Assembly: GCA_017542125.1 (NCBI GenBank) | Contig: JAFXXU010000062.1 | Span: 1 to 64,000, forward strand | Length of the DNA: 64,000 bases | Direction: 5' to 3' | DNA from: Ruminococcus sp. | GTDB taxonomy: Bacteria > Bacillota > Clostridia > Oscillospirales > Ruminococcaceae | Part shown: piece after piece, positions 385 to 3,070 of the stretch | How positions within the stretch are numbered: the stretch's first letter is position 1 | Layout: each line of letters starts with the position of its first letter | The notes under the pieces: model-generated | The model's input: only the letters and a program-made list of their open reading frames with translations | Told to the model about the DNA's origin: nothing | Databases searched by the model: none | Program-made: the position numbers and the translations under genes

Positions 385-441
385 AGAACGTGTAGCAGTT
401 ACTGCGTAAGTCCAGTTACTTGCTTCACGTTCTATTTTTTT
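385..441 (+). promoter_or_regulatory. 5'-terminal hairpin leader A with U-tract
   Basis: AGAACGTG (385-392) pairs perfectly with CACGTTCT (426-433), and an inner AGC/GCT and AGT/ACT helix encloses a loop containing CTGCGTAAGTCC. A T7 run follows, then the ribosome site. The same layout recurs before the next two genes. It looks like an attenuator or a protein- or ligand-bound leader. I cannot match it to a known riboswitch class. Confidence 0.65.
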
Positions 442-455
442 GCGAGGTGATACTT

Positions 456-953
456 GTGTATAAAGTTGACGATATGGTAATGTACGGCTCATTCGGTATA
501 TGTAAGGTCACAGCGATAGAAAAGCGTGATCTTACAGGAGAAGAACAGGAATACTATATTCTCAAACATATATACACTGATAAAAACATCTTCTATGTAC
601 CGACCAATAACGACAAGGCTCTCAGTAAGATGCACCCGATATGTTCAAAAGCAGAGGTCGATGAGCTGATCTCCCACATGAACTCTGAGGGTCTTATATG
701 GATAGACAACGACATCAAGCGTAAGGAAGAATACAGCCGCATTATAAAGGATGCAGACAAGCACGAGATCATCAGGCTCATCAAAACGCTGTACCTTCGC
801 CGTAAGGAGCTTGCTGAAAGTGGAAAGAAGCTTCGTTCCACGGAAGAGAATTATCTTAGTCTTGCAGAGAATATGCTGTTTGAGGAGTTTGCCTACGCTC
901 TTGATATCGACAAAAGCGAAGTTGTTGAATATATTGAAAAGCATATCGCATGA
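456..953 (+). CDS. CarD family transcriptional regulator
   Basis: This 165-residue protein begins with the CarD/TRCF RNA-polymerase-interaction fold: residues about 2-60 hold the typical pattern VYKVDDMVMYGSFGICKV and YYILK. The rest is helical, as in CarD/CdnL proteins. Family members bind the RNA polymerase beta subunit and modulate open-complex formation. I chose GTG 456 because GAGGTGA (444-450) sits just before it. The upstream in-frame ATG 420 lies inside the leader hairpin. The gene has its own promoter and a 5'-terminal hairpin, is AT-richer than most of the window, and precedes two genes with the same leader type. Its promoter targets are unknown. Confidence 0.8.
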   Translation: MYKVDDMVMYGSFGICKVTAIEKRDLTGEEQEYYILKHIYTDKNIFYVPTNNDKALSKMHPICSKAEVDELISHMNSEGLIWIDNDIKRKEEYSRIIKDADKHEIIRLIKTLYLRRKELAESGKKLRSTEENYLSLAENMLFEEFAYALDIDKSEVVEYIEKHIA

Positions 954-973
954 GATTTGTGAAAAAACACAAT

Positions 974-1002
974 TTGAAAAATCACGGAAAATTTGATATA
1001 AT
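974..1002 (+). promoter_or_regulatory. Promoter of the 79-residue protein gene
   Basis: TTGAAA (974-979), a 17-bp spacer and TATAAT (997-1002). The distance from the -10 box to the leader hairpin (8 nt) equals that upstream of the carD-like gene. Confidence 0.7.
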
Positions 1003-1010
1003 TAGTACAT

Positions 1011-1061
1011 AACGAGTAGCAATTCTGCGTAAGTCCGGTTATTGCTGCTCGTTTTATTTTT
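1011..1061 (+). promoter_or_regulatory. 5'-terminal hairpin leader B with U-tract
   Basis: AACGAG (1011-1016) pairs with CTCGTT (1048-1053). A T-G wobble and AGCAAT (1018-1023)/ATTGCT (1041-1046) continue the stem to 13 pairs. The loop holds CTGCGTAAGTCCGG, nearly identical to leader A, while the outer stem differs by compensating changes. A T-rich run and ACGGAGG ribosome site follow. Confidence 0.65.
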
Positions 1062-1080
1062 TTTACGGAGGTAGATCATA

Positions 1081-1320
1081 ATGAAAAGAATCAAAGAAGC
1101 GTGTATCTGCCAGACACTGCATTTTATGCTCAAGGAAGATGTCGGTCACGACTACGCTGTCAAGGTCGTAAAGGAAGAAATCACAAAGTACAAAGCTTCA
1201 CTCGAAAGAAGCAGAACAAAGTACAAGATACTCGAAGAAACCGAGCAGCCTGACGGCTCTGTTATCATCAAGATCAAGAAGCAGTACAACACTGCTCCTG
1301 TCGGCTCTTATCTCGACTGA
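1081..1320 (+). CDS. Conserved-looking 79-residue protein of unknown function
   Basis: Starts at ATG 1081 behind a strong ACGGAGG site. The protein is soluble and charged. Residues 1-45 look helical (ICQTLHFMLKED then EEITKYK). Residues 46-79 include a possible beta hairpin (YKILEETEQPDGSVIIKIKKQY). There is no membrane segment, signal peptide or Cys motif apart from CIC near the start. It is expressed from its own promoter with the island's hairpin leader. My impression is that similar small proteins are common in gut Clostridia, but I know no assigned role. Confidence 0.75.
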   Translation: MKRIKEACICQTLHFMLKEDVGHDYAVKVVKEEITKYKASLERSRTKYKILEETEQPDGSVIIKIKKQYNTAPVGSYLD

Positions 1321-1341
1321 TATAACAGAATAGCAGATCAA

Positions 1342-1387
1342 ACAGCGTGTGGCGTAAGCGTAATTCCGGCTTATAGCTTCACGCTGT
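1342..1387 (+). promoter_or_regulatory. Hairpin leader C upstream of the MATE gene
   Basis: ACAGCGTG (1342-1349) pairs with CACGCTGT (1380-1387). An inner TAAGC (1355-1359)/GCTTA (1369-1373) helix retains the words GCGTAAG and TCCGG found in leaders A and B. A weak promoter (CTGTCG 1298-1303, 17 bp, TATAAC 1321-1326) would start RNA just upstream. The U-tract is weaker here (TATTTATT). AGGAGG follows. Confidence 0.55.
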
Positions 1388-1407: not shown

Positions 1408-2850
1408 ATGGAACAAACCGCAAATCAATTCTTAGGGCTTGAGCCTGTGGGCAGACTGATGAAAAAGTACGCCGTGCCGTGCATCATTTCTCTGCTGGTG
1501 GGGGCACTCTACAACATCGTTGACCAGATATTCATCGCCAACGCAAGCTACCTCGGCTCTTACGGAAACGCCGCTAATACAGTGGTGTTTCCGCTTACTG
1601 TCATAGCTCTTGCGATCGCTGTGATGATCGGTGACGGCTGCTGTGCCTTTGTGAGTTTGAGTCTCGGCAGGAGCGAACCTGATAAAGCAAAGAAAAGTGT
1701 CGGAAACTCTGTTCTTATGACGATCGTGAGCAGCCTTATCCTTTGTGCCGTGTATCTGCTATTCAGCGACGGCATCATCGCTATGTTCGGCGGTACGGTC
1801 AATGAAGAAACCTTCCGTCACTCAAAGGAATATTTCTTCTGTATCTCGCTTGGAATCCCGTTCTATATGTTCGGACAGGCTATGAACCCTGTGATTCGTG
1901 CCGACGGCAGTCCGAAGTTTGCTATGATCTCCACCCTTGCAGGTGCGGTATTGAATATGATACTCGATCCAATATTCATTTTCGCTTTCAGGTGGGGTAT
2001 GATGGGAGCAGCGGTCGCAACTGTCATCGGGCAGATCGTGACAGCAGTGCTTGCGATATGGTATCTTTGCAATATGAAGCTCGTAAAGCCTGCAAAGACG
2101 GATTTCAAGCCCGAAAGTGCAATTATCCGCAAAACGCTGACACTTGGACTTACCAGCTTTCTCTCGCAGATCTCCCTTGTGGCAGCAATGGCAGCGATCA
2201 ATAATATGATACGCAAATACGGTGCAATGGACGCTGTTTTCGGGCAAGAGCAGTATGCGCAGATACCTATGGCGGTAGTCGGCATCGTTATGAAGTTCTT
2301 CCAGATCGTTATTTCTATCGTAGTCGGTATGGCGGCAGGCTGTATCCCGATAGTCGGATTCAATATGGGCGCAGGGCTGAAAATCCGTGTGCGTGAGCTG
2401 TTTTCAAAGCTCCTTATAGCGGAAGCGGCTGTCGGCGCGGTCGCCCTGATCTTTGTAGAGTTCTTCCCACGTCAGCTTATCGGCATATTCGGTGCAGCGA
2501 ACGAGAGCAGTTATTATACTGATTTTGCAGTACACGCATTCCGCATTTATCTCTGCATGATGATATTTGCCTGTGTGAACAAGGCTTGCTTTATCTTCCT
2601 GCAAGCTATGGGGAAGGCTGTGGAATCTACTGCTCTTTCTATGATCAGGGAGATCGTGTTCGGTGTGGGCTTTGCGGTAATTCTGCCCCTGTTCTTTGGG
2701 CTTGACGGTGTGCTTTACTCAATGCCTGTGTCGGATATTCTTACCTTTGCAGTCGCTTTGTTCCTTATCATCAGAACTTATAAGGAGCTTAGTGCAGAGA
2801 GAAAAAGCAAGCCAGTGAACAGTTCTGAGCCTGTAAGCGAAGCATCTTAA
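1408..2850 (+). CDS. MATE family multidrug/sodium efflux transporter
   Basis: This 480-residue, 12-helix membrane protein carries the two MatE repeats and the MepA-like N-terminal pattern (PCIISLLVGALYNIVDQIFI). Family members exchange Na+ or H+ for cationic drugs or metabolites across the cytoplasmic membrane. Length is normal and the frame is intact. The start is ATG 1408 with TAGGAGGAAATCAA directly before it. It is the last gene of the AT-richer island and shares the hairpin-leader arrangement with the two genes upstream. Substrate cannot be read from sequence. Confidence 0.9.
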   Translation: MEQTANQFLGLEPVGRLMKKYAVPCIISLLVGALYNIVDQIFIANASYLGSYGNAANTVVFPLTVIALAIAVMIGDGCCAFVSLSLGRSEPDKAKKSVGNSVLMTIVSSLILCAVYLLFSDGIIAMFGGTVNEETFRHSKEYFFCISLGIPFYMFGQAMNPVIRADGSPKFAMISTLAGAVLNMILDPIFIFAFRWGMMGAAVATVIGQIVTAVLAIWYLCNMKLVKPAKTDFKPESAIIRKTLTLGLTSFLSQISLVAAMAAINNMIRKYGAMDAVFGQEQYAQIPMAVVGIVMKFFQIVISIVVGMAAGCIPIVGFNMGAGLKIRVRELFSKLLIAEAAVGAVALIFVEFFPRQLIGIFGAANESSYYTDFAVHAFRIYLCMMIFACVNKACFIFLQAMGKAVESTALSMIREIVFGVGFAVILPLFFGLDGVLYSMPVSDILTFAVALFLIIRTYKELSAERKSKPVNSSEPVSEAS

Positions 2851-2854
2851 TATT

Positions 2855-3004
2855 TTTATAAGGCCAAGTTTTTCCCTCGCCTTCCGCGCTCGCCGTAATA
2901 GCTGTATCAAACAGGCCTGTATTGCCAAATGTGGGCGCATAAGCCGCAACGTACAGCACCGCAAGCCCAGCTGCAAGCGTGCGCTTGAAAATGTTATGTT
3001 TCAT
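2855..3004 (-). pseudogene. 5' remnant of a secreted-protein gene
   Basis: A real-looking gene start reads leftward from 3004: AAAGGAGGAATAATATG, then a classic signal peptide (MKHNIFKRTLAAGLAVLYVAA ... TAITASAEGE). About 45 codons in, the composition changes, the product becomes unlike a mature domain, and the frame stops at 2789. The break coincides with the 3' flank of the AT-rich island ending at the MATE gene. I infer that the gene was truncated by the rearrangement that brought the island in. The mature function cannot be told. Confidence 0.6.
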
Positions 3005-3020
3005 ATTATTCCTCCTTTAA

Positions 3021-3070
3021 TTTTAGAAAACAAAAGCACACCCCACGGGACTTATCCCGCAGAGTATGCT
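3021..3070 (-). terminator. Hairpin with U-rich tail in the leader of the truncated gene
   Basis: On the minus strand AGCATACTC (3070-3062) and GGGGTGTGCT (3044-3035) form the outer arms, with GGG/CCC nested inside, and the sequence then runs into TTTTGTTTTCTAAAA. It resembles an intrinsic terminator placed between promoter and start codon. The stretch 3071-3340 shows no gene. It holds T-rich DNA and a repeated G-rich TGGTTGGGTGG-like run near 3260-3300. Confidence 0.4.

Follow-up and report, generated by a model that had tools for sequence, protein, structure and literature searches.

Three hairpins before CarD-like, 79-residue and MATE exporter genes of a Ruminococcus seem to be copies of an apparently undescribed RNA switch

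The window analysed here, a stretch of 64,000 nucleotides from Ruminococcus sp. (contig JAFXXU010000062.1), carries three hairpins in front of three consecutive genes. These seem to be copies of a type of RNA switch that occurs in gut Firmicutes and has apparently not been described; it would either stop transcription or let it run into exporter and stress genes, probably in answer to a signal. The favoured reading, given a probability of roughly 0.6, is a transcription-attenuation switch in which a pseudoknot held by a ligand or factor would block termination and turn the genes ON. Comparison of relatives gives good support to the competing structures; a ligand is proposed, and the architecture and the genes suggest the ON direction. 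The features of the window are:

371–376, + strand: -10 box (TATAAT) of the promoter of switch 1, from the sequence and a promoter scan; a -35-like TTGCAT is at 348–353
385–433, + strand: hairpin of switch 1, the probable 5' end of the CarD-like transcript (fold z -5.26; match to model R1 with E 1.5e-17, switch 1 being one of the three source sequences of R1)
387–389, + strand: strand A (AAC) of switch 1, pairing with GUU at 415–417 (pseudoknot) or with the 3' arm (terminator), from the sequence and the covariation of the family
404–414, + strand: constant loop of switch 1, GCGTAAGTCCA (exact match; conservation)
415–417, + strand: strand A' (GTT) of switch 1, pseudoknot partner of 387–389
426–441, + strand: terminator 3' arm and U-run of switch 1, CACGTTCTATTTTTTT (sequence; covariation of the lower stem)
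456–953, + strand: gene for a CarD-like protein, stop included (PF02559, E 2.2e-12; PF21095, E 3.5e-6)
997–1002, + strand: -10 box (TATAAT) of the promoter of switch 2, from a promoter scan; the -35 box TTGAAA is at 974–979
1011–1053, + strand: hairpin of switch 2, before the 79-residue gene (fold z -5.37)
1011–1013, 1027–1037, 1038–1040 and 1054–1064, + strand: strand A (AAC), loop, strand A' (GTT) and U-run of switch 2
1081–1320, + strand: gene for a 79-residue protein of a conserved family, with no Pfam or NCBIfam match
1342–1387, + strand: intergenic hairpin of switch 3, between the 79-residue gene and the MATE gene (fold z -5.69)
1344–1346, 1358–1368, 1369–1371 and 1388–1394, + strand: strand A (AGC), loop, strand A' (GCT) and U-rich tail of switch 3
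1408–2850, + strand: gene for a MATE family exporter (PF01554, E 1.1e-29; TIGR00797 above cut-off)

An earlier note on this DNA had described three hairpins whose outer stems differ yet remain paired, and the positions it gave are exact. The arms, as read from the sequence, are AGAACGTG (385–392) and CACGTTCT (426–433) in switch 1, AACGAG (1011–1016) and CTCGTT (1048–1053) in switch 2, and ACAGCGTG (1342–1349) and CACGCTGT (1380–1387) in switch 3. Hairpins 1, 2 and 3 have folding energies of -21.9, -19.8 and -24.5 kcal/mol, with the z values listed above (-5.3 to -5.7) taken against dinucleotide shuffles, and equal stability was found in 0 of 200 shuffles for each. A stable stem followed by a run of U is present, as in an intrinsic terminator. 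The GCGTAAG that the loop was said to keep is there in switches 1 and 2, but switch 3 reads GCGTAAT.

Across the family the element is about 55–65 nt long and consists, in order, of strand A (3–4 nt), L1 (GWGU), B (RGC plus a variable stem), the loop GCGUAANUCCR, A', B', the 3' arm and the U-run. In four loci (L051, L053, L054 and L059) B and B' form, by eye, an unbroken stem of 8–11 pairs, G-U pairs included, that frames the loop and A'. The second G of GNG is G in 98 of 98 rows, though the parser allowed C, while its partner in the terminator is C in 73 of 87 and U in 13 of 87; invariance opposite a varying partner is a sign of a role beyond pairing. The loop parts TAA and CC and the first G of GNG were demanded by the parser, and their invariance is therefore partly the product of selection. 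A local CYG/CRG helix beside the loop was considered and set aside as not universal; it is paired in 80% of cells and clashes with the pseudoknot at one base. Before MATE genes there are tandem pairs in which the second hairpin (L013 119–177 and L015 1567–1624) has kept its stem and lost the constant loop, with GCGTTGACCC and GCGATAACAG in its place.

The earlier note had proposed a covariance-model search and could name no known riboswitch as a match. The search reveals a family. Model R1 was made from the three window hairpins and R2, a 15-sequence model with no pseudoknot encoded, was grown from it. At E <= 0.05, R1 has matches in 19 of 120 genomes, the window's own genome and weak matches included. 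At E <= 0.001, R2 has matches in 64 of 396 genomes of the window's family, 27 of 391 of the class and 8 of 398 of the phylum, each count including the own genome; the weakest of these matches are doubtful and some are plain terminators lacking the core. An exact pattern scan of the species collection gave at least 118 stretches, and of the 80 stretches listed, 79 by hand count have an R2 match at E <= 0.001. Also among the matches listed are Ruminococcus (R. flavefaciens FD-1 and Y1, R. albus KH2T6), Blautia, Butyricicoccus, Oscillibacter, Acetatifactor, Mediterraneibacter, Angelakisella, other Lachnospiraceae and Oscillospiraceae, and many Clostridia. No Rfam 15 family lies over the motif at the gathering threshold in the window or in 18 other loci, in agreement with the earlier note. 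When two places were scanned against Rfam below threshold, the matches were to unrelated families, foremost the microRNA family mir-9 (E 1.8e-4, 31.9 bits against a cut-off of 58.6).

From 177 matches at E <= 1, 95 were taken on by hand, omitting antisense images of the same hairpins and weak matches. Of these, 81 were parsed; the 14 that were not comprise one duplicate, one true-looking member (L092), two degenerate second copies and ten that are mostly plain terminators. Addition of class-level matches gives 101 rows, of which L073, L075 and L094 are misparsed; these three are excluded from the 98-row counts and kept in the energies.

In the listed matches the three bases that follow the constant loop resemble the 3' arm, and are therefore complementary to the 5' arm. 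The loop had previously been taken as no more than a loop, and the pseudoknot formed by the bases directly after it was missed. Strand A at the 5' end (AAC, AGC, GAU and others) has two alternative partners, the 3' arm of the terminator and the post-loop bases (GUU, GCU, AUC and others). The window alone displays such pairs, and with differing letters: AAC/GUU in switches 1 and 2 and AGC/GCU in switch 3. All three A-A' pairs are present in 72 of the 81 parsed matches, a count that includes the misparsed L075, against a mean of 49.3 and a maximum of 57 in 5000 shuffles. When the register is slid by 1 to 4 positions either way, 0–9 of the 81 are fully paired. The pairs are AAC/GUU (41), AGC/GCU (7), GAU/AUC (6), AAU/AUU (3), AUC/GAU (2), GAC/GUC (1) and UGC/GCA (1), the remaining fully paired matches being versions with G-U pairs; GAU/AUC and AAU/AUU each recur in four or five genera. 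The nine matches without the full three-pair pseudoknot include six in which AGC faces GCA or GCG and one misparsed row.

With the class-level matches added, full A-A' pairing is found in 91 of 101. Later class-wide matches, which had no part in finding the pseudoknot, have the A-A' pairs in 20 of 20 parsed (24 tried), where the shuffle mean is 15.7 and 0 of 5000 shuffles reach 20. A scan of all loci has 222 of 244 distinct instances fully paired, a descriptive figure as some loci were fetched with a pattern fixing GTT.

Covariation of both helices was counted on 87 distinct anchored pieces, with shuffle controls, which do not correct for relatedness, and with slid registers, which preserve it. 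In the pseudoknot helix 89.7% of 348 cells are paired, compared with at most 37.6% in slid registers, and there are 65 double-change cells against 21.0 in shuffles (0 of 500). In the lower stem of the terminator 95.6% of 522 cells are paired, with 61 double-change cells against 18.4 (0 of 500); slid by +2, it still has 69.0% of cells paired, yet 2 double-change cells. Of the five measures two say less: 310 and 223 of 500 shuffles reach the observed number of pairs that have a double change at all. On this comparative evidence the pseudoknot helix and the lower stem of the terminator, which have strand A in common, both covary strongly and are mutually exclusive. The compensatory change that had been taken as the signature of a selected RNA is seen in 15, and then in 87, distinct relatives.

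This second, competing helix, together with the constant loop and the position before genes, argues against an element that does not switch, be it a common stabilising hairpin at the 5' end, a plain terminator or a dispersed repeat. Such a reading would account for those weak model matches that are plain terminators without the core, but it is very unlikely for the family, and the assembly holds only three convincing copies. A dispersed repeat as such was ruled out: R1 finds three convincing copies in its own genome (2.9 Mb assembly, approximately 90% complete), and the loop word GCGTAAKTCCRG occurs there four times, the fourth being inside an open frame of 552 residues on contig C29. A search for plasmid copies gave one irrelevant match of 211 bases.

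A conserved structured RNA in cis before a gene is what is expected of a riboswitch, and this is what is found. By comparison, its expression platform also appears to be exclusive with the sensor fold, strand A being shared. The switch is proposed to work as follows. During transcription B/B' and A/A' could form before the 3' arm is complete. An effector would recognise the constant loop and the GWGURG strand, the candidate contact parts being this strand and GCGUAANUCC, and would thereby hold the pseudoknot. With the pseudoknot held the terminator could not close, and the exporter, CarD-like or 79-residue gene would be transcribed. With no effector, A would move to the 3' arm and transcription would end after approximately 60 nt. 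Mean contributions over the 101 rows are -11.0 kcal/mol for the lower stem and -0.4 for the pseudoknot duplex by itself, the latter calculated with no pseudoknot energy model. The pseudoknot is therefore expected to give way to the terminator unless it gains stability from contacts of the loop, from a ligand or from a factor.

Of the two partners of the 5' end one is made early and the other late, a kinetic design that would also suit a sensor of the state of transcription, where a polymerase slowed by drugs or DNA damage would let the pseudoknot form and prevent termination with no ligand involved. CarD/TRCF-RID-like proteins and UvrA are linked to polymerase or repair, and both the former and one UvrA are among the targets. 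Pure timing, however, gives no reason for an 11-nt loop to stay constant from family to family, and the terminator is predicted to be far more stable than the pseudoknot, so this explanation is considered improbable.

The earlier suggestion that either a ligand or a protein may bind is retained. In a protein-controlled attenuator, a trans-acting factor would bind the constant loop and stabilise or melt the pseudoknot. The constant loop and GWGURG strand fit a protein as well as a ligand, and autoregulation is conceivable as two of the targets encode small conserved proteins (79-residue and CarD-like). The 79-residue protein is the one whose distribution was followed. Its family comprises 16 aligned sequences, with 46–85% identity to that of the window (1081–1317) and an invariant MKR start, and a sequence search of the PDB gave no relative below E 0.5. 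It is present in 17 of 54 RNA-positive and 2 of 26 RNA-negative genomes. The former were picked from the 64 R2-positive genomes of the family, omitting weaker ones; the latter are a convenience choice that includes G012 and G021, which have weak matches resembling plain terminators, G021 being one of the two that carry the protein. Higher frequency in RNA-positive genomes is expected of a target. Of the 54 RNA-positive genomes, 37 gave no match to the protein, as did 32 of the 46 of better quality. This makes it unlikely as an obligatory partner or general factor, and more likely a target. Control by a protein is a minority reading, less probable than a ligand but ahead of the sensor of transcription state.

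Among the 81 core matches, a set selected by a slightly different rule from that of the 81 parsed matches and not identical to it, 80 have an assigned first frame. Sequence clustering of these frames gives 46 MATE, 13 CarD-like, 11 79-residue, two related membrane proteins and eight singletons. Some singletons are misassigned frames, L059 being a relative of the 79-residue protein and L024 and the inner L048 looking MATE-like by eye; another resembles what is presumably an ABC exporter, judged on its motifs. Further loci have VEG (two, just above cut-off), rubrerythrin, UvrA, DUF2798 and two MFS proteins, one of which is above the cut-off of a DHA2 exporter model; an M20 peptidase is also present, farther away. 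The switch before the UvrA gene (L238, around 1501–3064) is the sole case observed of a DNA-repair gene under the switch. At L064 an azaaromatic (yjdF) riboswitch, RF01764 (2642–2740, - strand), lies beside a CarD-like gene that bears the switch. These two, each a single case, are a hint of toxic or DNA-acting compounds.

A conserved loop before exporter genes suggests a small molecule that is pumped out and an ON response. The effector is most likely a small molecule removed by MATE and other exporters, which would make this an orphan riboswitch class. The Veg, rubrerythrin and CarD-like targets fit no single obvious ligand. An orphan class that is possibly a general sensor of toxic compounds in gut Clostridia, with its first bases contested and aptamer and terminator in one hairpin, is a tentative proposal. 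If right, gut Ruminococcus, Blautia, Oscillibacter, Butyricicoccus and their relatives would widely share a transcriptional switch of very small size, one that would tell when they open their MATE exporters and that ties poorly known families (CarD-like, 79-residue, Veg and DUF2798) to one signal. Three compensatory base pairs would decide between the two outcomes, which is a precise and testable prediction.

Competition between an H-type pseudoknot and an intrinsic terminator is known from preQ1-I, fluoride and other small riboswitches. The competition proposed here is of the same kind, and the Rfam scan, the sole means of comparison with them, gave no match at gathering score. Leader-peptide conditional terminators attenuate exporter or resistance genes. 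The present element acts before similar genes, but in its promoter-proximal copies the hairpin begins at the probable 5' end and there is therefore no room for a leader frame with a ribosome site. The azaaromatic riboswitch is a broad sensor of ring compounds, with one copy seen here, at L064, and the motif does not match it; it is reported to act on translation (PMC9142559).

The closest likeness is to the guanidine-IV riboswitch and its variant Gd4v. These are described as two hairpins joined by a pseudoknot (PMC9788692), and guanidine-IV (GGAM-1) is a reported ON switch with MATE genes among its targets (PMC7736828, PMC9788692). Shared with the window RNA are the position before MATE genes, the pseudoknot and a Rho-independent terminator hairpin that is, or here would be, part of the binding structure; in addition, Gd4v is reported to be enriched in gut samples (PMC7736828, PMC9788692). 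In those RNAs, however, the terminator is the 3' of two hairpins, with constructs of 95 nt, whereas here it is the sole hairpin, approximately 60 nt long and at the probable transcript start, and its pseudoknot partner is its own 5' arm. The most frequent start of the hairpin, some 8 nt downstream of the -10 box, leaves no space for a first hairpin of the guanidine-IV type. Neither sugE (guanidine-IV) nor a transaminase (Gd4v) is among the assigned targets, although 58 of 199 places, many of them chance matches, are without assignment and some of these were followed. Identity with either RNA was rejected on architecture, as compared with the published description, and is given very little weight.

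A literature search of titles and the beginnings of abstracts, with supplements and subscription papers outside its scope, brought up no description of such a motif, and look-ups of terms in motif-discovery papers gave no relevant passage. The motif is rated as a new class within the transcription-attenuation, riboswitch-like RNAs, though an earlier listing in a supplement or subscription paper is conceivable.

That the switch co-ordinates the island of three genes, as first suggested, is too local a view, since the same switch is found alone or in series in many genomes. There are 37 neighbouring pairs of switches within 420 nt, of which 14 are within 130 nt, 4 at 131–250 nt and 19 at 251–420 nt; several of the last, including that of the window, have the 79-residue gene in between. 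Neighbours have different three-base A strands in 34 of the 37 pairs and different A' strands in 36, and in every pair the combination of the two differs, some pairs being from close relatives. The differing letters may prevent cross-pairing, or may reflect two lineages, a leader type and an inner type. Neighbouring copies with different pseudoknot letters could be separate gates in series. A short frame with a start that is signal-peptide-like by eye (2789–3004, - strand) overlaps the end of the MATE gene and has the look of a truncated gene for a secreted protein.

The gap of 8 nt claimed between -10 box and hairpin in the first two switches is true of both, and the distance from the -10 box to strand A is 10 nt in switch 1 and 8 nt in switch 2. 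The promoter scan gave no convincing promoter for switch 3. Where matches have a fair -10 box, the gap to strand A is 8 nt in 32 of 72 and 6–10 nt in 50 of 72, which places strand A probably among the first few transcribed bases of the promoter-proximal copies.

A DNA element, TTTGTGCAAAANNNCCTTTG, occupies 331–350, directly ahead of the -35 box of switch 1 and overlapping it, and is found again before many switch copies in other genera. Its only exact match in the genome is at this site, with seven more at three mismatches compared with four for the reversed control. It is also found before the 79-residue gene in L258 and, more loosely, in L263, two loci where inspection of 300 bases by eye shows no switch. 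The element is possibly an operator or a special type of promoter. Further upstream, the window has at 137–285 a promoter-like stretch with a similar upstream element (three mismatches), followed by a hairpin-like stretch containing GCGTAAATC and AATCCAG in altered order. It is not reported by R1 or R2, and has the appearance of a switch relative that has decayed or been rearranged.
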